Assembly (NCBI RefSeq): GCF_031624635.1
Contig: NZ_JAMQOQ010000006.1
Span: 124,001-188,000, forward strand
Direction of reading: 5' to 3'
Length of the DNA stretch: 64,000 nucleotides
DNA from: Halogeometricum sp. S3BR5-2
GTDB lineage: Archaea; Halobacteriota; Halobacteria; Halobacteriales; Haloferacaceae
The first letter of the stretch is position 1, and every line of letters begins with the position of its first letter. A program made the translations under genes and the position numbers. Below the pieces are notes generated by a model. It was given only the letters and a program-made list of their open reading frames with translations. It did no database searches and was not told the origin of the DNA. This document shows positions 660 to 12,310 of the stretch, piece by piece.

Positions 660-1052
660 ATGCCGTCGTTCTTCGTCTACGGTACGCTGACCGACCGCGT
701 ACAGGTGGACCGTCTCCTCGACGAGTGGTCGTTCGGACCCGACGCGCGCGTCGACGGACTTCACCGCGCCGAGGGGCGCTACCCGACGCTGGCGCCCGGC
801 GGGTCCGTCTCCGGGCGCCTGCTCGAAACCGACGACGCGGCGACGCTGGACGCCTACGAGGGCGTCGACTCCGGCCTGTACGTCCGCGTCGAACTCCCGC
901 GTACGGACGGCGAGCACGCCTTCGCCTACGTCGGCGACGCCGCCCGCCTGAACGCGGACGCCGAGTGGCCCGGCGACGGCGACCTGCGGACCCGCGTCGA
1001 GCAGTATTTGTCAGAGAACAGAGTTGTGGTCGAAACGGGAGAATCAGGATAA
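660..1052 (+). CDS. gamma-glutamylcyclotransferase-like (AIG2 fold) protein
   Basis: A 130-residue protein starting MPSFFVYGTL. The YGTL motif at residues 7-10 is the substrate-binding loop of the gamma-glutamylcyclotransferase/AIG2 family. The LDAYEGVDSGLY segment near residues 63-74 supplies the usual catalytic Glu, here E67. Family members release 5-oxoproline from gamma-glutamyl compounds, but many archaeal members have unknown substrates, so the reaction is only inferred. Length matches a single compact domain with no signal peptide or membrane segment. The gene stands alone, divergent from the MATE exporter. Confidence 0.82.
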   Translation: MPSFFVYGTLTDRVQVDRLLDEWSFGPDARVDGLHRAEGRYPTLAPGGSVSGRLLETDDAATLDAYEGVDSGLYVRVELPRTDGEHAFAYVGDAARLNADAEWPGDGDLRTRVEQYLSENRVVVETGESG

Positions 1053-1312
1053 GACGGACGAACGACGGCCGTCAGACGCGGAGTTCAGGGCGCCTCCGTC
1101 TCCCGATTTTACTTTCACCGCGCCTGGGGGACGTTTATGTAGCAGCCGGTCGGTAGAACAACTGCACGTCACGCGCGTGCATTCCCCCTTACACTTCTCC
1201 GAGCCGCCGCGCCCGGGAGCGCACGCCGGGTTGAGTTCCCGCCGGCGCACAAATTGTCGCCTCCGAAAGCGTAATGCGAACGCTTACCCGGTGGGCCGCG
1301 GAACCGCGGCGT
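1053..1312. other. 260 nt gap before ilvA with a TATA-like element and a small inverted repeat
   Basis: No convincing gene is seen here. A TATA-like GTTTATGT lies at 1131-1138, which would start a transcript near 1160, about 150 nt before the chosen ilvA start. An inverted repeat, TGCACG at 1163-1168 and CGTGCA at 1176-1181, sits right at that predicted start. The gap may therefore hold a long leader for ilvA or a small RNA; neither is proven. Confidence 0.4.
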
Positions 1313-2524
1313 ATGATTTCGCTTGCCGACATCGAGGCGGCGCGCGACCGGGTCGAGGAGGTCGCGAAGCGCACGCCCCTGGACTACTCGTACACGTTCT
1401 CGGAGATGACCGGGGCGGCGGTCCACCTGAAGTTGGAGAACAACCAGCGGACGGGGTCGTTCAAGATACGCGGCGCGATGAACCGTATCGCGACGCTCTC
1501 CGAGGAGGAGAAGGAGGCGGGCGTCGTGACCGCCAGCGCCGGCAACCACGCGCAGGGCGTCGCCCTCGCGGCGACCCGGACGGGCGTGGACTCGACGGTG
1601 GTGATGCCCGAGCACGCCCCCATCTCGAAGGTGAAGGCGACGCGCCGGTACGGCGGACGGGCGGTGCTGCACGGCGCGGACTACGACGAGGCGCAGGCGC
1701 GGGCGCACGAGATAGAGGCCGAGGAGGGCCGCACCTACGTCCACGCGTTCGACGACGACTACGTGATGGCCGGGCAGGGCACCATCGGCCTCGAAATCGT
1801 CGAGGACTGCCCCGACCTGGACACCGTCGTCGTCCCCATCGGCGGCGGCGGCCTCATCTCCGGCATCGCCACCGCGGTGAAGGCGCAACTGCCCGACGCG
1901 CGCGTCGTCGGCGTGCAGGCGGAGGGCGCCTCCAGCGTGGCCGAGTCGCTCCGGAAGGGGTCGGTCCACGAACTCGACAGCGTCAACACCATCGCCGACG
2001 GCATCGCCACGCGCCGCGTCGGCGACAAGCCGTTCGAGGTCATCCGAGAGCGCGTCGACGAGGTGGTCACCGTCTCCGACGAGGAGATAGCCGTGGCGCT
2101 CACCTACCTGCTCGAACGCTCGAAGACGCTGGTCGAGGGGGCGGGCGCCGTCGCCCTCGCCGCCCTGGTCTTCGAGAAGTTCGACTACGAGGAGGGAGAG
2201 GTGGTCGTGCCGGCCCTCTGCGGCGGCAACATCGACATGAACCAACTCACCACCGTCGTCATGCGCGGCCTCGTCGAGACGGGCCGATATCTGAAGGTGC
2301 GGACGGTGCTCCGGGACCGACCGGGCGCCCTCCACGACCTGCTGTCGGTCATCGCCGACGCACAGGCGAACATCTACGCCATCCGCCACGACCGGACCTC
2401 CCGGGAGATAGGCATGAACGAGACGGACGTGGAACTCGACTTGGAGACGCGCGGGCACGACCACGTCGAGGACCTGCTGTCGGCCCTCCGCGAACGGGGC
2501 TACGCGGTCGAAGTTCTCGTCTGA
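1313..2524 (+). CDS. ilvA: threonine ammonia-lyase (threonine deaminase) with C-terminal ACT domain
   Basis: PLP enzyme converting threonine to 2-oxobutanoate and ammonia, the first step towards isoleucine. With the ATG at 1313 the protein has 403 residues. K51 in the TGSFKIRGA motif is the PLP-binding lysine, SAGNHAQGVA binds the cofactor ring, and the PIGGGGLISGIA loop holds the phosphate. From about residue 325 an ACT-type regulatory domain begins (LRDRPGALHDLLSVIADAQ), typical of allosterically controlled enzymes. An in-frame ATG at 1274 would add 13 Arg/Trp-rich residues that look unlike the family. A ridA gene follows and very likely cleans up the reactive enamine product. Confidence 0.93.
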   Translation: MISLADIEAARDRVEEVAKRTPLDYSYTFSEMTGAAVHLKLENNQRTGSFKIRGAMNRIATLSEEEKEAGVVTASAGNHAQGVALAATRTGVDSTVVMPEHAPISKVKATRRYGGRAVLHGADYDEAQARAHEIEAEEGRTYVHAFDDDYVMAGQGTIGLEIVEDCPDLDTVVVPIGGGGLISGIATAVKAQLPDARVVGVQAEGASSVAESLRKGSVHELDSVNTIADGIATRRVGDKPFEVIRERVDEVVTVSDEEIAVALTYLLERSKTLVEGAGAVALAALVFEKFDYEEGEVVVPALCGGNIDMNQLTTVVMRGLVETGRYLKVRTVLRDRPGALHDLLSVIADAQANIYAIRHDRTSREIGMNETDVELDLETRGHDHVEDLLSALRERGYAVEVLV

Positions 2525-2578
2525 GTCGCGGCCGGGGTCCGCCGAGACGACGCGGAAAGTAAACCCGCAGTTCTCTCG

Positions 2579-2588
2579 GTTTTAAGTC
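2579..2588 (+). promoter_or_regulatory. TATA-like promoter of the ridA gene
   Basis: GGTTTTAAGT lies 24-32 nt before the GTG start at 2611. That is the spacing for a leaderless haloarchaeal transcript and it supports the GTG as the true start. Confidence 0.6.
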
Positions 2589-2610
2589 CGACGAGGGTAA
2601 GACAGCGCGT

Positions 2611-2997
2611 GTGAAGCGAACTATCAGCACGGACGACGCCCCCGCGGCGGTGGGCGCGTACAGTCAGGCGACGACGAACGGTTCTATTCTGTTCACGGCC
2701 GGGCAGATTCCGCTCACGCCGGACGGAGAACTCCTCGACGACGAGGACGTCGCCACGCAGACCGAGCGGTCGCTCGACAACGTGATGGCCATCCTCGAAT
2801 CGGAGGGCGCGGACGCCTCGGACGTGCTCAAGGTGAACGTCTACCTCGACGACATCGACGACTTCGAGGAGATGAACGAGACGTACGCGACGTACTTCGA
2901 GGAGGAACCGCCGGCCCGGAGCGCCCTCGAAGTCGGCGCCCTGCCGAAGGGGGCGAGCGTCGAGATAGAGGCCATCGCCGACGTGTCGGAGGAGTGA
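2611..2997 (+). CDS. ridA: RidA family reactive enamine/imine deaminase
   Basis: A 128-residue YjgF/YER057c/UK114 protein. RidA hydrolyses the unstable 2-aminoacrylate and 2-aminocrotonate enamines released by PLP dehydratases, protecting PLP enzymes from damage. The signature Arg is R103 in PPARSALEVGALPKGASVEIE, and E120 completes the active pocket. The N-terminal segment VGAYSQA and the GQIPLTPDGE loop are family hallmarks. It lies 86 nt downstream of threonine deaminase, whose product is its classic substrate. The GTG start is supported by a well-placed TATA-like box. The next gene overlaps its stop by 4 nt, so the two are probably co-transcribed. Confidence 0.93.
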   Translation: MKRTISTDDAPAAVGAYSQATTNGSILFTAGQIPLTPDGELLDDEDVATQTERSLDNVMAILESEGADASDVLKVNVYLDDIDDFEEMNETYATYFEEEPPARSALEVGALPKGASVEIEAIADVSEE

Positions 2998-3200
2998 CAC
3001 CGCGCGCCCGGTCGGCGGCGCTGTGGGGTCTCGTGGGGACGCTGTCGTTTCTCGTCCTCGTACAGGGCTACCGCCTCCTCGTCGGACCGTTGGGCATCGG
3101 GTTCGGCGCGACGGCCGCCGTCGCCGTCCTCGTCGGACTCGTGGTCACCGCCGCGACGTACGCCACCGAGCACCGTCTCAGCGCGAAAGGAAGGACTTAA
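2994..3200 (+). CDS. small membrane protein, two predicted helices
   Basis: 68 residues beginning with a GTG that overlaps the ridA stop codon in a GTGA arrangement, which implies translational coupling. Two hydrophobic stretches are visible, near residues 8-27 and 32-57, joined by a short Gly/Pro turn, and both ends are basic. I do not recognise a characterised family; it looks like one of the many haloarchaeal two-helix membrane proteins of unknown role. The stop codon lies inside the TATA-like element of the downstream tRNA gene. Confidence 0.65.
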   Translation: MTPRARSAALWGLVGTLSFLVLVQGYRLLVGPLGIGFGATAAVAVLVGLVVTAATYATEHRLSAKGRT

Positions 3201-3202
3201 AC
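3194..3202 (+). promoter_or_regulatory. TATA-like promoter of tRNA-Ser
   Basis: GACTTAAAC lies 26-34 nt before the first base of the tRNA and overlaps the stop codon of the upstream small membrane-protein gene. Confidence 0.55.
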
Positions 3203-3227
3203 GCATCACCGGGCTACCTCGAATCGA

Positions 3228-3308
3228 GCCGGGATGGCCGAGTGGTAAGGCGCACGCCTGGAAAGCGTGTTCCCTTTGGGATCCAGGGTTCAAATCCCTG
3301 TCCCGGCG
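3228..3308 (+). tRNA. tRNA-Ser(GGA)
   Basis: 81 nt fold into a class II tRNA. The acceptor arm pairs GCCGGGA (3228-3234) with TCCCGGC (3301-3307), and G3308 is the discriminator base expected for tRNA-Ser. The anticodon loop CTGGAAA gives anticodon GGA, which reads UCC/UCU. The long variable arm GTTCCCTTTGGGATC is the serine hallmark, and the T-arm is AGGGTTCAAATCCCT. No CCA is encoded. Several partial copies of its 3' end follow downstream. Confidence 0.95.
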
Positions 3309-3310
3309 TT
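3287..3310 (+). repeat. tRNA-Ser 3' end, copy 1 of a three-copy repeat (within the tRNA)
   Basis: The 24 nt running from the T-arm through the acceptor 3' strand and two bases beyond recur exactly at 3411-3434 and in part at 3544-3561. This end of tRNA genes is the usual attachment core for archaeal tyrosine-integrase elements. Confidence 0.8.
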
Positions 3311-3326
3311 TCTGACGCGACTACCC

Positions 3327-3354
3327 GACGAGCACCGCGTAGCGTGTGCTCGTC
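3327..3354. repeat. stem-loop downstream of tRNA-Ser
   Basis: GACGAGCAC (3327-3335) pairs with GTGCTCGTC (3346-3354) around a 10 nt loop. There is no T-run directly after the stem, so a classical terminator role is uncertain. The GAGCACCGCG in its left arm and loop recurs at 3519-3528, before the third tRNA-end copy. Confidence 0.6.
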
Positions 3355-3380
3355 GCCGCGAGCGTCGAAGCGACGCCGAG

Positions 3381-3422
3381 GGGATTTGAATCAGGGAGCG
3401 AAGCGACCGTGGTTCAAATCCC
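3381..3422. repeat. inverted T-arm sequence paired with tRNA-end copy 2
   Basis: GGGATTTGAA (3381-3390) is the exact reverse complement of TTCAAATCCC (3413-3422) in the second tRNA-end copy. The two could form a 10 bp stem with a 22 nt loop. An inverted piece of a tRNA T-arm beside a direct copy suggests a recombination scar. Confidence 0.65.
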
Positions 3423-3434
3423 TGTCCCGGCGTT
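3411..3434 (+). repeat. partial copy 2 of tRNA-Ser 3' end (putative att remnant)
   Basis: 24 nt identical to 3287-3310 of the tRNA gene. There are no anticodon or D-arm sequences upstream, so it is not a tRNA gene. It is best explained as an attachment-site remnant or a local duplication. Confidence 0.75.
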
Positions 3435-3543
3435 CTATTGACTCTACCCTCCGGCGAAGCGTTTCATCGCCGAGCGACAGCGATGGAGTCTAGACAGGTA
3501 CGAAGGGGTTTGTGCAGCGAGCACCGCGAAGCGGTACGAGTGA

Positions 3544-3561
3544 GTTCAAATCCCTGTCCCG
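3544..3561 (+). repeat. partial copy 3 of tRNA-Ser 3' end (diverged att remnant)
   Basis: 18 nt, GTTCAAATCCCTGTCCCG, match the tRNA T-arm and acceptor; the sequence then diverges (ACC instead of GCG). The lead-in GAGCACCGCG at 3519-3528 is shared with the segment after copy 1. Confidence 0.7.
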
Positions 3562-3675
3562 ACCTCCCCTGCTGCTCGGACGAGAACGACACGAGTCGGA
3601 CAGCGAGCCGCCGACTTCACCGTGCGAACCTATCCCAAAGATTGATGTTCACACCGCGAGTACGTGTGTTTGACA

Positions 3676-3855
3676 ATGCCAGACACAAAGAACGGCAGGG
3701 AGCGCAAAGGTCGTAACAAGCAGAGTCAGCTCCAAGAGAGCCTCTATACCGAAGAGATGGACGCTCTCGACACGGAGGACGAGCTTCCACCGTTCGAGTC
3801 CGACCGGTCCCGCGAATCGGAGTTCCTCGCGGACGAGCTTCCCGACAGACGCTGA
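3676..3855 (+). CDS. small charged haloarchaeal protein of unknown function
   Basis: 59 residues from ATG 3676 (MPDTKNGRERKGRNKQ). The N-terminal third is rich in Lys/Arg/Gln and the C-terminal two thirds are acidic (Asp/Glu/Ser), so the protein is bipolar and probably unstructured. I see no membrane segment, metal-binding motif or known domain. A GTG at 3664 in the same frame would add four residues. Such basic-then-acidic microproteins are common in haloarchaea but I cannot assign a role. It is the first gene after the tRNA-Ser repeat region. Confidence 0.65.
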   Translation: MPDTKNGRERKGRNKQSQLQESLYTEEMDALDTEDELPPFESDRSRESEFLADELPDRR

Positions 3856-4177
3856 CCGTCCGCCGACCTCCACGACACCCTTTCTTCGCGTCCCGACGCC
3901 CGAGCGACGGCGTCGCTCCGTTCGGTGGGCGAGCGTCCCTTCGCTAGCGACTGCGGCGTTCGGGCCGCGGGTTCGTTCCACCGTTCGAGAGTATATAAAC
4001 AACCCCGCACATCGCGTTTCGACACCGCGTTCGCACGCGCGACGGGCGGACGGCGGCGACGACGGAAACGCGACACGCGGGCTGATTTTCGGGAGGTTCC
4101 CTGATTCGTGGTGACACCCCTCACGAGCGACCGTAGCGAAGCTTTTATATAGAATCACAAACAATCCTGCGGTGACT
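3856..4177. other. 322 nt intergenic region with an unassigned strong TATA-like element
   Basis: No protein gene is supported here. TATATAAA at 3992-3999 is a near-perfect archaeal TATA box but lies about 180 nt from the thermosome start and reads well in either direction. A second box at 4143-4150 fits the thermosome gene. The first may serve an upstream start site of the thermosome gene or a small RNA. Confidence 0.45.
4143..4150 (+). promoter_or_regulatory. TATA box of the thermosome gene
   Basis: TTTTATAT is preceded by a CGAAG stretch and lies 28-35 nt before ATG 4178. Haloarchaeal chaperonin promoters are known to be heat-inducible with control centred on the TATA region; heat control here is inferred. 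Confidence 0.65.
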
Positions 4178-5842
<1,665 letters not shown>

Positions 5843-5984
5843 AGTAGGGAACAACCCGACTCACACCCCGTTCCGACCTCGAATCGCCGCGCAACCGTCG
5901 GCCCGCAGGCCGAACCCGATTTTCTTTCGACGCCGACCCGAGAGCGACCGCTCCGTCACCTGTACAAAAAGCCGAGCGGCGCGG

Positions 5985-6992
5985 TTACTCGCTCTCCTCG
6001 TCGGTCGAGCAGGGCGGGAACCCCTCGACGCGGAGGAACAACTGCTTGCTCTCGGCGGCGAGGTCGTCCCAGTGGACCTCGCCGTCGGCGACGATGTTCT
6101 CCGGGTCGAGAGCGGGGTCGCGCAGGACGGTCAGTCCGGTGAACAGGGGGAGGCGCAGTTCGGGTTCGCCGCCCTCGACCTCACCTCCGTCCTCGGTCGG
6201 CATCTCCGTCGGGGTCGGCGTCCCGTACTCCGTCGACGTCTCCGTGGCGGTCTCCGTCGACGTCTCGGTCATCGTCGCCGTCGGCGTCTCCGTCTCGGTC
6301 GGCACTTCGGTCTCAGTTTCCGTCTCCTCGGGCGGCGCCGCGCAGGGGTCCGGGAGCGGTTCGTACCCCTCCGTGGTCCCCACGACGACGCGCATCACGT
6401 GGCCGAACGCCTCGTGCGGGCCGCAGTAGAGGTCGTACACGCCGGGTATCTCGAACGTGTACAGCCAGTACGCCCCGGCGTTCAGCACGGGCGACGAGAA
6501 GGGCGGGACGCCCTCGGGGACGCGGCGCATCTCGCCGCGGGCGGGGTGGTACGCCGTGATGGTGTGGTGCGGCGTCGTGTACGAGAACTTCACCGTGTCG
6601 CCGGGGTCGACGTACAGACCGCAGGGGTCGTAGTAGAACTCGGGTATCTCCCGTCCCTCGGCCGGCCGGACCAGCAACTCGACCTCGTGGTCGGGTTCGA
6701 CGGGCGGGGTCACGTCCGGCGAGATGGACGCGTATCCGAACACCGGGTCGGCCGAGGGGGGTTGGTTCGTCCCGTCGTCGGTGTCGTCTTCGGCGTCCCC
6801 CTCGTACTCCTCGCCACCGTCCTCGTCGTCGGCCGCCGCGGCCATCCCCCACGCGCCGACGCCGCCGGCGGCGACGGCGCCGATACCAGCCGCGCGCACG
6901 AGGGTCCGGCGCCGGAGGGCGAACCCGTCCCGCGGGTCGGGCGTCGTCTCAGCGTCTGTCCGGCCGTCCGAGGCGGTGTCTGGATCTGACAT
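5985..6992 (-). CDS. Tat-exported cupredoxin (halocyanin/plastocyanin-like) with Thr/Glu-rich stalk
   Basis: 335 residues. A twin-Arg signal (RRRTLVRAAGIGAVAAG, about residues 27-43) is followed by an acidic linker. The type I copper domain spans about residues 105-206, with likely ligands His142/143, Cys190, His193 and Met200 in the PHHTITAYH and YCGPHEAFGHVM segments. Next come a Thr/Glu repeat stalk (about 222-268) and an unassigned 60-residue C-terminal part. No C-terminal anchor is visible. It probably carries electrons on the outer cell surface. An in-frame ATG at 7004 would add four residues. It converges on the thermosome gene and diverges from the cyclodeaminase gene. Confidence 0.85.
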   Translation of the reverse strand: MSDPDTASDGRTDAETTPDPRDGFALRRRTLVRAAGIGAVAAGGVGAWGMAAAADDEDGGEEYEGDAEDDTDDGTNQPPSADPVFGYASISPDVTPPVEPDHEVELLVRPAEGREIPEFYYDPCGLYVDPGDTVKFSYTTPHHTITAYHPARGEMRRVPEGVPPFSSPVLNAGAYWLYTFEIPGVYDLYCGPHEAFGHVMRVVVGTTEGYEPLPDPCAAPPEETETETEVPTETETPTATMTETSTETATETSTEYGTPTPTEMPTEDGGEVEGGEPELRLPLFTGLTVLRDPALDPENIVADGEVHWDDLAAESKQLFLRVEGFPPCSTDEESE

Positions 6993-7088
6993 CGAAGTAC
7001 ACATTACGGGGAGCGTAGAAAACCGCTTCTGCGTATTTCGGGAGTGTCAGACCGCCGAGACGCTCTAATTCGCAAAAATGAAAAGTGG

Positions 7089-7200
7089 TTGAAATTATTC
7101 CATGGTCTCTCGACCAGTTCGGTTCGGACAACCGGCGGCGGACGGGGATGTTCGAATATTATTTCAATTTTCGCTCTGTAAAGAGAAGTTATTCGAATAT
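7089..7200. promoter_or_regulatory. AT-rich divergent control region with direct and inverted repeats
   Basis: TTCGAATAT occurs at 7151-7159 and again at 7192-7200, 41 bp apart; each contains the palindrome TTCGAA. TTGAAAT at 7089-7095 and ATTTCAA at 7161-7167 form an outer inverted pair. The stretch is much more AT-rich than its surroundings and lies between divergent genes, so it is a likely regulator-binding region. Confidence 0.5.
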
Positions 7201-7270
7201 CTGGTTCGGTGTGGGAGTTCGTTCTGATTCACCATGAACTAAGTAATGTACCGCGGAACAGGACGGTAAG

Positions 7271-8281
7271 ATGCAAACGCTGCTCTTGAACGGTGACGAC
7301 GTCCACGAGAACGCGAACATGGGTGACCTCGTCCCCGCAATCGAGGAGGCGTTCGCCGCCTTCGAACGCGGCGACGCGCAGATGCCGCCGAAGTCCTACA
7401 TCGACCTGCCGCAGTACAACGGCGACTTCCGGTCGATGCCGGCGTACATGGACGCCGGCGACTGGGACGCCGCGGGCATCAAGTGGGTGAACGTCCACCC
7501 CGACAACGACGACCGGTTCGACCTGCCCACCGTGATGGGAACGATGGTGTACTCCTCGCCGGAGACGGCGTTCCCCCTCGCGGTCATGGACGGCACCGAG
7601 TTGACGATGAAGCGGACGGGCGCGGCCGCCGCCGTCGCCACCGACCACCTCGCCGTCGAGGACGCGACGTCCCTCGGCATCGTCGGCGCGGGCGTCCAGT
7701 CGTACACGCAGTTGGAGGCCATCTCCACCGTCCGCGACATCCGAGAGGTCGTCGTCTCGGACCTCGACGAGGAACGCGTCGCGCGCTTTCTCGACGCCTT
7801 CGAGGACGAGTTCGACGTGCGGGCAGGGTCCGTCGAGGAGGCCGCCGCCTGCGACGTGCTCTCGACGGTGACGCCCGTCGAGAGCCCCATCGTCCCGCGC
7901 GAGGCCGTCGGCGAGCACACCCACATCAACGCGATGGGCGCGGACGCGGAGGGGAAACACGAACTCGCCGACGAGGTGCTCCTCGATTCGAAACTCGTCA
8001 TCGACGACCACGAACAGACCACCCACTCGGGCGAGATAAACGTCCCCTACGGAGCGGGGACGCTCACCGACGAGGACATCTACGGCGCCATCGGCGAGAT
8101 AGTCGTCGGGGAGAAGGCGGGCCGCACCGCCGAGGACGGCATCACCGTCTTCGACTCGACGGGCCTCGCGATTCAGGACGTGGCCGCGGCGCACGTCGTC
8201 TACGAACACGCCGACGAGAACGACAACGGCTACGAGTTCGACCTGCTCGGCCTCGCCGGTCGGGGTCGGAACGAGCGCTGA
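7271..8281 (+). CDS. ornithine cyclodeaminase / alanine dehydrogenase family protein
   Basis: 336-residue NAD(P)-dependent enzyme of the OCD/mu-crystallin family. K73 in AGIKWVNVHPDN and the DGTELTMKRTGAAAAVAT segment are the substrate-site hallmarks, and LGIVGAGVQSYTQLEA is the Rossmann dinucleotide loop (about residues 136-151). Family members convert ornithine to proline or interconvert alanine and pyruvate, so the exact reaction cannot be fixed from sequence. The full family length is present. The promoter region upstream is AT-rich with repeated TTCGAATAT sites, suggesting regulated expression. Confidence 0.88.
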   Translation: MQTLLLNGDDVHENANMGDLVPAIEEAFAAFERGDAQMPPKSYIDLPQYNGDFRSMPAYMDAGDWDAAGIKWVNVHPDNDDRFDLPTVMGTMVYSSPETAFPLAVMDGTELTMKRTGAAAAVATDHLAVEDATSLGIVGAGVQSYTQLEAISTVRDIREVVVSDLDEERVARFLDAFEDEFDVRAGSVEEAAACDVLSTVTPVESPIVPREAVGEHTHINAMGADAEGKHELADEVLLDSKLVIDDHEQTTHSGEINVPYGAGTLTDEDIYGAIGEIVVGEKAGRTAEDGITVFDSTGLAIQDVAAAHVVYEHADENDNGYEFDLLGLAGRGRNER

Positions 8282-8294
8282 ATCGGTCGGCTGT

Positions 8295-8528
8295 CTACGT
8301 CTCGTCCTCTTCGCTCTGTCCCCGCTGCGCCGCGAGGAACTCGAGCAGTTTCGTCAGGGCCCAGACGGCGAGGAAGAACGGGAGCAGGGGGAGAAACAGC
8401 GCGAGGAGGACCAGGAAGATGATCCAGCCCACGGAGTTCATTTCCCTGTCGGTGTGCGATTTGTACCCCGGCGTCACCGTCCGGTAGGCGCGTCGCAGTG
8501 CGCCCGGAGATTCTTCTTCGTCTGCCAT
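8295..8528 (-). CDS. small membrane protein of unknown function
   Basis: 77 residues from ATG 8528 (MADEEESPGALRRAY). After a basic stretch (RTVTPGYKSHTDREMN) there is one long hydrophobic region near residues 33-58 (WIIFLVLLALFLPLLPFFLA), enough for one or two tight helices, then an acidic tail. I do not recognise a characterised family. It converges on the cyclodeaminase gene and diverges from the TVP38-type gene. Confidence 0.65.
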   Translation of the reverse strand: MADEEESPGALRRAYRTVTPGYKSHTDREMNSVGWIIFLVLLALFLPLLPFFLAVWALTKLLEFLAAQRGQSEEDET

Positions 8529-8673
8529 GGTCGGACCAACGCCCGCCGGCACGAAAATACGTTCGCTCCGCGGCGCGTCGATGGCGGGCGAAAAGGAGAC
8601 GAGCGGTTCGCGGCCACGACGGTCGGATCGCAAACCTAAGTTCCGGGGCGCCGTCCGAACCGATGACAGAGAG

Positions 8674-9438
8674 ATGAGGGGACAGTTGGAACTGGTTCGC
8701 TCGCGGGTCGACGAGGTTCGGGTGTTCGCGTCCGCCAGAGAGCGGCGGCGATTCCTCGTCCACGCGGCGGCGGCCGCCCTCGTCCTCGTCGTCGCCGTCG
8801 CCCTCGCCCGACGGCACCTCGCGTTTCTGGCCGACCCGGGGGCGGTGCGCGCGTTCGTCCGCGGGTACGGCGTCTGGGGGCCGGCGGCGCTCGTCGCCCT
8901 GCAGGCGCTTCAGGTCGTCGTCGCCCCCCTCCCCGGGCAGGTGCTCGCCGTCGTCGCCGGCTACCTCTTCGGCGCCTGGTGGGGCACCGTCTACAGTCTG
9001 GTCGGGGTGACCCTCGGCAGCACCGTCGCCTTCTGGCTCTCGCGGCGGTTCGGCCGCGCGTACGTCGACCGGATGGTTCACGCCGACGCCCTCGCGCGGT
9101 TCGACGCCCTCGGCGACGGCTACGGACGGACGGTGCTGTTCGTCTTCTTTCTCTTCCCCGGCCTGCCGGACGACGTGCTCTGCTTCGCCGGCGGCCTCAC
9201 CCGGATTCCGCTGTGGCAACTCGTCGTCATCGCCGCGGTCGGACGGGCGCCGGCGTTCTTCCTCGTCAACGTGGTCGGCGACTTCCTCGGGACCGAGCGA
9301 TACTGGGCCGCAATCGCGCTGGTCGCCGCCGTCGTCGTCGTCTCCGCCGTCGGCTACCTGAACCGCGAGCGGTTGTTCGACCTGTCCGGCGGACCCGATG
9401 AATCGGAGGCGTCCGACGAGTCCGGCGAGGAGGAGTGA
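8674..9438 (+). CDS. TVP38/TMEM64 (DedA-like) family membrane protein
   Basis: 254 residues with about six hydrophobic segments. The family core is clear: VVVAPLPGQVLAVVAGYLFGAWWGTVYSL followed by a re-entrant-type GSTVAFWLSRRFGR, then FLFPGLPDDVLCFAGGLTRIPLW. VTT-domain proteins of this type are linked to lipid scrambling or membrane homeostasis; the archaeal role is unknown. The start at 8674 (MRGQLELVRSRV) is preferred because upstream in-frame residues are Arg-rich and unlike the family. The C-terminus is acidic. The gene ends 4 nt before the convergent LeuRS stop. Confidence 0.85.
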   Translation: MRGQLELVRSRVDEVRVFASARERRRFLVHAAAAALVLVVAVALARRHLAFLADPGAVRAFVRGYGVWGPAALVALQALQVVVAPLPGQVLAVVAGYLFGAWWGTVYSLVGVTLGSTVAFWLSRRFGRAYVDRMVHADALARFDALGDGYGRTVLFVFFLFPGLPDDVLCFAGGLTRIPLWQLVVIAAVGRAPAFFLVNVVGDFLGTERYWAAIALVAAVVVVSAVGYLNRERLFDLSGGPDESEASDESGEEE

Positions 9439-9442
9439 GTCG

Positions 9443-12310
9443 TTACTCGACTTCGAGTTCGACGGCCGGGCGGAACGGAATCGCCCGTTTGGTCGCCTCG
9501 GCGTCGTCGCCCTCGAGTCGAATCTCCACCGCGGCGTCGAACTCCCGCGAGAGGAACTCGGTCGCCGCCTCGTACGTCTCGTACTCGTCGAGTTCCGCGA
9601 GGGCGGTCACCTCCTCGTCGTCGTGGCCGCGGGCGAACTCCACGAGTTCGCCCACGAGGTCGTTGACCTCGTTTCCGCGTTCGCGCAGGTCGGGCTTTTG
9701 CATCACCGTTCCCATCACGGCGCCCTGGTCCGCCCCCTCCTCGGCGACGGCGGCGAACACCTCGCGCTTCCAGTCGGCGGCGACGGTGACGACGATTCGG
9801 TCGGGGTCGGCCTCGGGCACGTCCTCGTCGGCGTTCGCCAGCGACTGCTGGATGCCCTTGATGTCCTCGGTCAGCCGCGCTATCTGGGACTCGCTCGCCT
9901 CGACGGCGTCGCTCTCGACGGACTCGTCGGCCTCGGGCCACGGCGCGTCCTCGGCGGGCGTGCCGGTCAACCGCTCGTGGAGTTCGTTCGTCATGAACGG
10001 GACGAACGGCGCGAGGAGGCGCAGACGCGTCTCCAAGACCTCCCGGAGGGTCCACCGCGCGGCCGGGCGGTCGGTGTCGGTGCGGCGGCGGTACCAGCGC
10101 AGTTGCTCCTCGAAGTCGTAGAACGCCGCCTGACTGGCGCTTCTGGTTTCCGAGGACTCCATCGCTTCGGTCACTTTCCGAACCGTCGCCTGCAGTTTCG
10201 ACAGGAGCCAGCGGTCCTCCTGCGCCAGTTCGGGTCGCTCCGCGGGTGCGTCCGACTCGATTATCTCGTCGGCGCGGTTCCAGAAGCGCTCCAGTTGGGT
10301 GCGGACCGACTCGACCTGGTCGTCCCGCCAGTCGTAGTCCTGCCACGGTTCCGCCGAGTTGAGTAGGAAGAAGCGCACCGTGTCGGCGCCGTAGTCGTCG
10401 ATGGCGGCGCCGGGGAGGACGACGTGGCCCTTCGAGGAGGACATCTTCTCGCCCTCCAACAGCCCCATCCCCATGATGACGACGCCCTGCGGCCAGTTCG
10501 GCCGGTCGAACAGTTCGGCGTGGTGGAACAGGTAGAACGTCAGGTGGTTCGAGATGAGGTCGTTCGCCGAGAAGCGGTAGTCGACGGGGTACCAGTAGTC
10601 CCACTCCTCGCGCAGTTCGACCGCGCGTTCGGGCGCGTCGTCGACGGCCTCCGGTCCGTAGAAGAGCGTATCGAAGAACTCCCGGTCTAACTCCTCCACC
10701 GGCACGTCCCGCAGGCGGTGCGCGATGGTGTAGTAGGCCATGTAGATGGTGGAGTCCGACAGCGGTTCGATGACGAAGTCCTCGTCCCACGGCAGGCGGG
10801 TCCCCAGTCCGTAGTTGCGGATGCACGGCCACTCGTTCAACCAGTCGATGGTGTGGTCGTACTCCCCGCGGGTGTTCTCGGGGATGGCGTCCATCTCCGA
10901 GACCACCTCGTGGGCCTTCGCCTTCCAGTCCTCGTCGTCGTAGCGCAGGAACCACGTGTCCTGTTCGGCGACGACGACGTCGCCGCCGCACCGGCAGACG
11001 ACGTCCTCGGAGAACTCCTGCATCGTCCCGAAGGCGCCCTCCTCGCGGTGGGCGTCGCGGAATCTCGTTCGCACGTCCTCGACGAGTTCGCCGGCGAACT
11101 CGCCGTAGTCGTCGTTCATGCGGCCCGCGTGGAACTCCTTGTTGTAGAGGTCCTTCGTCGCCTTCTCCAGGGCGGGGTCGTCGGAACTCGTGACGCCCGC
11201 CTCCTCGACGGCGGACCGCGCGGGAATCTCGCCGTAGCCCTCGACGGTCAGAATCGGAATCGGCTCGATGGCCGCCACGTCGGCCGGGTCGATGCCGTAC
11301 TCCTCCATCCGGGCGTCGTCGTCCTTCGCCTCCTGAAGCGCCACGTAGTCGTCGGGCGAGTGCGCCGGAACCGACATCACGACGCCCGTCGCGTTCTCGG
11401 GGTCGACGAACTCCGCGGGCAGAACCAACACGTCGTCGCCCGTGACGGGGTTGGTGACGCGTTCGCCGACCAACTCGGCGCCGGTGACCTCCTCGCGGAC
11501 CTCGACGTCGTGGGCCTGCAGGCGCAGTTTCTCGGCCGCCTTCGCCGAGACGAACCACTCCTCGCCGTCGACGTCGGCGTAGACGTAGTCGCCGTCGGGG
11601 TTGACGTAGGCGTTCGTCACGCCGCGGACCGTCTCGGGGCGCAGCGTCGCCATCGGGACGACGGTGTCGCCGCGGCCGAAGCGGACGAGCGTGTACTCCT
11701 GGAACTCGGCCTCTTCGCCTTCGAGCAGGTCGTGCGTGGTGACGGGTTGCTCCTCGTTCGTACAGTACTTGACCGGGTGGAGGCCCTTCTCCAGCAGTTC
11801 GCGCTCCCGCAGCGTCTCGTACTGCCACGTGATGAACTTCGAGTAGCGCTCGTCGTTCGTCGTGAACTCGCGGCGCCAGTCGACCGAGAGGCCGAGCGAC
11901 TTCATCCCGCGCTTGTAGTGTTCCTCGATGAAGTAGCGGGCGAAGCCCATCGGCGTCTCCAGGTCGGTCAGCGTCTCCTCGGGGACGTTGTACGTGTCGC
12001 GCAGGACCGAGAGCTGCTTTTCCTCCCCTTTCTTCAGGCGCTCGACGGCGCCGATGATGGGCGTGCCGGTGACGTGCCACGCGATGGGGAACAGGACGTT
12101 GTCCCCCCGCTGTCGCCGGTATCGGGCGTACACGTCGGGGACGGTGTACGTCCGCGCGTGGCCGATGTGCATCCCGCCGCTGGGGTACGGGTAGGGCACC
12201 GTGATGAACGTCGGGTCCTCGTCGGCGTCCGAGGGGTCGGCCTCATACCGACCGGTCTCGGCCCACCGCTCCCGCCAGCGCTCCTCGAGTTCCTGCGGGT
12301 CGTATTCCAT
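9443..12310 (-). CDS. leuS: leucyl-tRNA synthetase (archaeal type)
   Basis: 955-residue class Ia synthetase charging tRNA-Leu. The ATP-site HIGH motif appears in PYPSGGMHIGHARTY near residues 43-57, and the KMSKS motif as GEKMSSSKGH near residues 620-630. Between them lie the CP1 editing domain (THDLLEGEEAEFQEYTLVRF; TLRPETVRGVTNAYV) and a Cys pair (CRCGGDVV). An anticodon-binding helical domain and an archaeal C-terminal extension follow. The start at MEYDPQELEERW (ATG 12310) is supported by a TATA-like element 23-30 nt upstream. It is monocistronic as far as seen. Confidence 0.97.
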   Translation of the reverse strand: MEYDPQELEERWRERWAETGRYEADPSDADEDPTFITVPYPYPSGGMHIGHARTYTVPDVYARYRRQRGDNVLFPIAWHVTGTPIIGAVERLKKGEEKQLSVLRDTYNVPEETLTDLETPMGFARYFIEEHYKRGMKSLGLSVDWRREFTTNDERYSKFITWQYETLRERELLEKGLHPVKYCTNEEQPVTTHDLLEGEEAEFQEYTLVRFGRGDTVVPMATLRPETVRGVTNAYVNPDGDYVYADVDGEEWFVSAKAAEKLRLQAHDVEVREEVTGAELVGERVTNPVTGDDVLVLPAEFVDPENATGVVMSVPAHSPDDYVALQEAKDDDARMEEYGIDPADVAAIEPIPILTVEGYGEIPARSAVEEAGVTSSDDPALEKATKDLYNKEFHAGRMNDDYGEFAGELVEDVRTRFRDAHREEGAFGTMQEFSEDVVCRCGGDVVVAEQDTWFLRYDDEDWKAKAHEVVSEMDAIPENTRGEYDHTIDWLNEWPCIRNYGLGTRLPWDEDFVIEPLSDSTIYMAYYTIAHRLRDVPVEELDREFFDTLFYGPEAVDDAPERAVELREEWDYWYPVDYRFSANDLISNHLTFYLFHHAELFDRPNWPQGVVIMGMGLLEGEKMSSSKGHVVLPGAAIDDYGADTVRFFLLNSAEPWQDYDWRDDQVESVRTQLERFWNRADEIIESDAPAERPELAQEDRWLLSKLQATVRKVTEAMESSETRSASQAAFYDFEEQLRWYRRRTDTDRPAARWTLREVLETRLRLLAPFVPFMTNELHERLTGTPAEDAPWPEADESVESDAVEASESQIARLTEDIKGIQQSLANADEDVPEADPDRIVVTVAADWKREVFAAVAEEGADQGAVMGTVMQKPDLRERGNEVNDLVGELVEFARGHDDEEVTALAELDEYETYEAATEFLSREFDAAVEIRLEGDDAEATKRAIPFRPAVELEVE

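Follow-up and report, generated by a model that had tools for sequence, protein, structure and literature searches.

The window, by which we mean the whole 64,000-nt stretch of DNA analysed here, contains a tRNA-Ser(GGA) gene with a threonine dehydratase/Rid-family block on one side and a thermosome gene on the other (ORFs named from sequence). The last part of this tRNA recurs downstream. A repeat search finds three copies in all of the tail repeat GGTTCAAATCCCTGTCCCGGCGTT: the tRNA's own (3287-3310), a second that is identical in 24/24 positions (3411-3434) and a third that is 83% identical (3543-3566) and includes 18 exact nt (3544-3561). Start to start, the copies are 124 nt and then 132 nt apart, and none of the window's ORFs between them is an integrase gene. 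In all of this the preliminary description, which had reported the exact 24-nt copy, the 18-nt copy and the missing integrase gene, was correct.

Both downstream copies close a unit of ~80-150 nt without genes (Table 1). In front of each lies the T-loop in inverted orientation, which the preliminary description had missed, as it had the hairpin directly behind the tRNA. In unit 1, GGGATTTGAA...TTCAAATCCC (3381-3422) thereby form a long imperfect hairpin. This hairpin B is made up of the inverted T-loop arm GGGATTTGAA, a conserved core CAGGGAGCG..CGACCGTGG and the T-loop arm TTCAAATCCC; its 3' strand is the T-loop plus the beginning of the copied tRNA tail. In unit 2 the inverted arm has decayed to GGGGTTTGTG. 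The motif GAGCACCGCG(T/A)AGCG, previously noticed in both spacers and read as a possible sign of spacer duplication, is indeed present, but it belongs to the hairpins. Single-strand folding gives z -4.2 (DNA) and -4.5 (RNA) for hairpin A of unit 1, and -5.7 / -6.4 for its hairpin B.

Table 1. Parts of the tRNA-Ser(GGA) locus, in window positions
Feature	Position	Strand	Basis
tRNA-Ser(GGA), host site	3228-3308	+	ARAGORN; Rfam RF00005, 63.6 bits
Duplicated segment, tRNA-Ser(GGA) positions 53-73	3288-3308	+	repeat borders
Unit 1 hairpin A (trailer hairpin, TTTCTGACGC...GCGTCGAAG)	3309-3370	+	folding z; homologues
Unit 1 hairpin B	3380-3423	+	covariance model R1, 61.8 bits, E 8.4e-14; folding z; covariation
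Copy 1 of tRNA positions 53-73, exact	3412-3432	+	repeat search, borders
Unit 2 hairpin A, second type, GACTC...GAGTC	3440-3490	+	sequence; spacer type also in G004
Unit 2 hairpin B, CAGCGAGCACC type	3504-3555	+	covariance model R1, 29.6 bits, E 2.4e-5
Copy 2 of tRNA positions 53-73; identical over the first 18 nt, altered in the last 3	3544-3564	+	repeat search

Chance can be dismissed as the source of the hairpins at the tail copies, because the covariance model singles out exactly these two in 64 kb; beyond them, the only match with E<0.5 is the reverse strand of the first. Apart from the tRNA itself, no Rfam family exceeds its gathering score between 2500 and 4500. Hairpin A of unit 1 has homologues at tRNA-Asp(GTC), tRNA-Ser(TGA) and tRNA-Thr(CGT), and the spacer type of unit 2 stands first in the array of a related genome (G004). 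Further downstream lies a small ORF (MPDTKNGRERKGRNKQSQ..., 3676-3855) without a Pfam match; many loci of Halorubrum and Halobellus have an unnamed conserved counterpart of it 3' of tRNA-Ser(GGA).

The units follow a common plan. Hairpin A begins directly after the discriminator base and is followed by a short spacer, hairpin B and a copy of tRNA positions 53-73. Our collection, in which 117 of 241 tRNAs contribute 145 copies, was partly picked for carrying units; nearly all copies lie 70-190 nt from the previous tail (median about 106). The borders of the repeat are sharp. From position 51 to position 53 the identity of tRNA and copy rises from 0.33 to 0.99, and from position 73 to position 74 it falls from 0.92 to 0.63 (n=186); the repeat hence runs from position 53 to position 73, where the mature tRNA ends if CCA is not counted. 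The outer stem of hairpin B is the inverted T-loop paired with the T-loop of the tail copy, its foot carries inverted core sites (..GAAC / GTTC..), and the pairing of the arm reaches tRNA position 64 and stops before 65 (145 copies). Of 54 cases in which tRNA and copy have diverged, 53 show better pairing of the tRNA body with the native tail than with the copy, and for this reason we regard the distal copy as the decaying one. Purifying selection on the tRNA would equally yield a better-fitting native tail. The tail copies of several tRNAs also share one extra T-loop base at the same place (TTCACAATC, TTCACCATC, TTCGTAATC, TTCACACTC; loci L057, L060, L071, L226 and L295), perhaps a footprint or a result of selection against recombination with the tRNA.

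The preliminary description saw the locus as a fossil integration hotspot; it is no one-off fossil. In the window's genome, the tail of about 12 of 46 tRNAs is repeated once or twice downstream, and further tRNAs have a hairpin B with a decayed tail copy. The covariance model detects 25 hairpins in this genome (E<=0.01) at about 20 of 48 tRNAs; it was built partly from the same genome, so these matches are not independent, but location is no part of the model. The location is almost exclusively the 3' end of tRNA genes: 23 of the 25 hairpins lie less than 1 kb 3' of a same-strand tRNA (18 of 48 tRNAs), and the remaining 2 follow the attR copy of a tRNA, in one case tRNA-Leu and in the other tRNA-His. 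In a second genome (G042), 20 of 25 matches adjoin a listed tRNA. One more, whose unusual arm matches (AATTTGAA/TTCAAATT), lies 3' of a tRNA-Pro missed by Rfam; another is downstream of an apparently intron-containing tRNA, and three are on the opposite strand close to tRNA-linked arrays.

A search across the phylum finds the palindrome GATTTGAA-N(12-42)-TTCAAATC in 193 of the 244 Halobacteria genomes (one genome per species, with search patterns that cover the commonest T-loops only), and its reversed control in 0. In the rest of the phylum it occurs in 6 of 164 genomes with one match each, which is chance level, and the two of these matches that we inspected look unrelated. In a sample of 30 palindromes, 27 are in loci with a tRNA gene, where it should be borne in mind that our tRNA samples are enriched for carriers; in one of these loci (L089) an integrated element separates the tRNA from the hairpin. 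Another candidate (L090) was rejected as a chance palindrome inside a gene.

The outer arm of hairpin B tracks the local T-loop. In the window's genome, the arm TTCGAATC accompanies GATTCGAA at Leu-TAA and Asp, TTCGACTC accompanies GAGTCGAA at Val-TAC, and TTCAAGTC accompanies GGCTTGAA at Lys-TTT. In a subset unselected on the arm, A57 of the T-loop goes with T in the arm (53:5) and G57 with C (23:3; p 8e-13). These counts are phylogenetically not fully independent, kinship having been handled by anticodon alone; by anticodon majority in the unbiased set, p is only 0.015.

When 41 B hairpins are aligned, they show the conserved core CAGGGA(G/A)(C/T)G...CGACCGNGG. Of its cells, 90.8% are paired, versus 84.9% in shuffled and 24-49% in slid controls. 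Double-sided changes occur in 9 of 18 pairs, and inner pairs change jointly from G-C to A-U and from C-G to U-A. The two strands are not equivalent. Tandem G-A mismatches and GNA-type loops appear on the tRNA-sense strand (GAGCGA-type core 89 times, its reverse complement once), as do the G-U pairs of the inner stem, and of 115 cases, 100 fold better as the tRNA-sense strand with RNA parameters and 99 with DNA parameters. The outer arms have no clear preference for G-U versus A-C, so the choice of strand rests on the inner stem and the asymmetry of the core. The predicted fold belongs to the tRNA-sense strand, and the strand data fit RNA and single-stranded DNA alike.

Units come and go. Among 79 named species, 39 carry 1-3 units at tRNA-Ser(GGA), and species of the same genus (Halorubrum) can be full or empty. 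As a comparison of an empty with a filled site, the empty H. yunnanense locus aligns with the flank that lies beyond the last copy of Halorubrum SD626R, equally far from the junction in both (68 and 68 nt). Inserts are also shared between different tRNAs, each with the local tail: we found 217 such homologous pairs in 63 anticodon combinations (E<=1e-8), the best being tRNA-Asp(GTC) of H. limi and tRNA-Ser(GGA) of the window (85% over 101 nt). The order of A and B types differs as well, namely Y-B1-X-B2 in G004 versus X-B1-Y-B2 in the window. From these full and empty sites and common inserts it follows that one part of the earlier reading as integration remnants holds: the units are insertions at the tRNA 3' end that duplicate its tail.

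Could the units result purely from local duplication or slippage at hairpins, without any mobility? The preliminary description had named local duplication as its rival explanation. Identical tandem units would be expected, and they exist: tRNA-Lys(TTT) of G066 is followed by four identical 111-nt units and tRNA-Leu(CAA) of G019 by a 4x87 nt array. Such perfect arrays are recent amplifications, and tandem identity can also come from slippage alone. Furthermore, deletions in Haloquadratum are often flanked by short direct repeats (PMC3119063). Yet homologous inserts at different tRNAs carry local tails, and units occur at many tRNAs throughout the class. Local duplication is thus contradicted as the origin of the units, for which we consider it extremely improbable, and is valid for changes in copy number.

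The other part of the earlier reading, that the copies are what integrase elements left behind, does not hold. Archaeal integrative elements that target tRNAs use the 3' end of the gene and leave a direct repeat (PMC8371274, PMC3119063), both of which they have in common with our units. The units could then be attR scars that persist after gene loss, the crossover having taken place in the T-loop (Williams sublocation II). A repeat that spans the T-loop to the tRNA end is what T-loop-crossing integrases predict, and the genome does contain integrases. One of them, a tyrosine integrase, belongs to a 10-kb element at tRNA-Leu(TAG) (L214, G000:C1:80001-100000, 782-11050), which also encodes a 1307-aa methylase/restriction-like protein and a DUF262-like protein (named from sequence) and is likely a defence island.

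This and other genuine elements make it possible to compare real attachment sites with the units. At tRNA-Leu(TAG), the attR core extends upstream of the T-loop and has no hairpin B, and an old A-B-tail unit follows. The same holds for the elements at tRNA-Gly(TCC) and, in the window's genome, at tRNA-His; for the 10.9-kb element at tRNA-Thr(CGT) of G004 the attR likewise lacks a B hairpin and the unit lies beyond. At all four tRNAs the flanks of attR differ from those of the units. Since the order is tRNA, element, attR, older unit, the integrases chose the tRNA itself as their site and not the units. Unlike the units, these elements have integrase genes, kilobases of length, no B hairpin and mostly longer cores.

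The reading as integrase fossils fails for further reasons. First, the size range of the units is narrow, and their structure is conserved with compensatory changes, hence they are no decayed debris. Second, the tail is local at each tRNA, whereas integrase exchange places the element's tail on the tRNA. Third, in the 79 tRNA-Ser(GGA) loci tail copies lie only 55-480 nt downstream, and the comparison with relatives that had been proposed earlier turned up no kilobase-sized element flanked by these tails, bar one weak match with 4 mismatches at 2.3 kb. The integrases of the window's genome are encoded elsewhere, none among the window's ORFs near the tail copies. We consider this origin quite improbable. 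A free virus or plasmid with the tail core, also anticipated earlier, was not found either: 18- and 16-nt cores give a handful of matches in IMG/VR, those inspected were chance matches in coding genes of unrelated contigs and not viral attP sites, and distant blastn searches of phage and plasmid records give no match of haloarchaeal origin.

The main rival explanation is that the units are host RNA modules, transcribed as read-through tRNA trailers. Hairpins A and B would then serve termination, 3' processing, protection or the sequestering of the duplicated tail from the tRNA body. Structural conservation of the units could reflect such a function. The folding, the tandem G-A mismatches and the inner-stem G-U pairs are on the tRNA-sense strand, as RNA predicts, and the distal border coincides with the mature tRNA 3' end, which is the RNase Z site. 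Termination at hairpins is possible in Haloferax (PMC7237163). Against this, half of the tRNA-Ser(GGA) loci, including those of sister species, manage without units, the type and number of units vary freely at one locus, A and B types are swapped between related genomes, and tandem amplification can be perfect. We take a host RNA role seriously, although we think it rather unlikely.

The explanation we favour, and which we consider somewhat probable, is that the units form a Halobacteria-wide family of gene-less, non-autonomous miniature mobile cassettes specific to tRNA 3' ends, two of which are in the window. Their properties suggest a miniature mobile element of a kind not described before, and not the scars of ordinary viruses or plasmids. 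Because folding is strand-asymmetric, we infer a single-strand intermediate: the element would insert at the tRNA end as a folded single strand, either single-stranded DNA or derived from RNA. The inverted arm of hairpin B may base-pair with the T-loop and thereby help to choose or remake the site, while the host tRNA would retain its native tail. The 21-nt direct repeats could then permit tandem gain and clean loss through recombination or slippage. The enzyme would presumably work in trans. Of this picture, the unit anatomy, the site specificity and the turnover are what the data show. A more far-reaching version, which we offer tentatively and regard as doubtful, is a class-wide system that inserts folded single-stranded cassettes (RNA-derived or ssDNA), picks its target by pairing between arm and T-loop and builds integron- or CRISPR-like arrays in which the repeat is the tRNA tail.

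We found no enzyme, free or circular form or autonomous relative of the cassettes, and the searches of phage, plasmid and viral collections gave none. Also speaking against mobility, some units seem to be old and vertically kept, for example at tRNA-Thr(CGT), where copies with an inserted T-loop base occur in two genera. Larger autonomous versions seemed conceivable where B hairpins are distant from a tRNA, but these are explained by integrated elements (L089, tRNA-Leu(TAG) and tRNA-His), by tRNAs that Rfam missed (tRNA-Pro and seemingly intron-containing tRNAs) or by the L295 pair described below. Y1 transposases are probably not the mover, at least not in all carriers. PF01797 and hairpins show no association in 28 genomes: the family is present in 22 of them and absent from G249 and G236, which have 7 hairpins each, and G009 has 10 PF01797 copies and no B hairpins.

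REP/REPIN doublets and miniature elements derived from IS200/IS605 are short, gene-less, dispersed imperfect hairpins that are presumed to be mobilised in trans. The cassettes resemble them in having two hairpins per unit, mismatches on one strand and a presumed movement in trans. Unlike them, the cassettes are confined to tRNA 3' ends, duplicate 21 nt of the tRNA and match the local T-loop with their outer arm, and Y1 transposase genes are missing from two hairpin-rich genomes. IS200/IS605 and REPIN/RAYT also insert without target duplication, whereas the cassettes carry a 21-nt direct repeat of the local target. In some archaea, casposons insert beside a tRNA and duplicate their target at its 3' end. 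The cassettes share this, with positions 53-73 duplicated, but the casposon repeat is about 14 nt rather than 21 nt, and we identified no terminal inverted repeats in the units.

Integron attC arrays stand in tandem beside a fixed site, and their units end in strand-specific folded hairpins with inverted core sites. All three properties recur here, the strand-specific folded site as the predicted fold of hairpin B. One could argue that a tyrosine recombinase joins folded single-stranded, attC-like B sites, with the tRNA T-loop as primary site. The array anatomy, the strand-specific imperfect hairpin, the inverted core sites at its foot and the existence of empty and filled sites are all in line with this. 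However, no integrase is linked to the window's array, the cassettes contain no genes, the core is tRNA sequence, and a unit is only about 100 nt long. The fourth base of the foot (GTTCAAA / TTTGAAC) is C and not R as in the attC core (GTTRRRY / RYYYAAC). In addition, exchange should leave the tRNA with the tail of the cassette, and this is not observed. We consider integron-like recombination very improbable.

More than one third of the tRNA genes in the window's archaeon carry cassettes, as do many tRNA genes across most Halobacteria. They are prone to be misannotated as attachment-site scars or tRNA pseudogenes, also in the search for proviruses. If the cassettes are mobile, they point to a new recombination activity that uses single strands in folded form and is matched to the T-loop of the tRNA. 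As functional RNAs, they would add a new layer to the biology of tRNA 3' ends. We found no earlier description of them in the open papers searched.

Two loci deserve mention for their internal arrangement. In the array at tRNA-Pro(TGG) of G154 (L281), the units hold an additional partial acceptor repeat GCGGTCCCAT in the spacer, which is why we think that sub-units can nest. In L295 (G019:C2:1324500-1329500), a segment of ~100 nt with hairpin B and tail is present twice (740-880 and 3690-3830). This 2.9-kb repeat pair flanks 2.8 kb that encode a DUF6895 protein but no recombinase, possibly a composite of two units.
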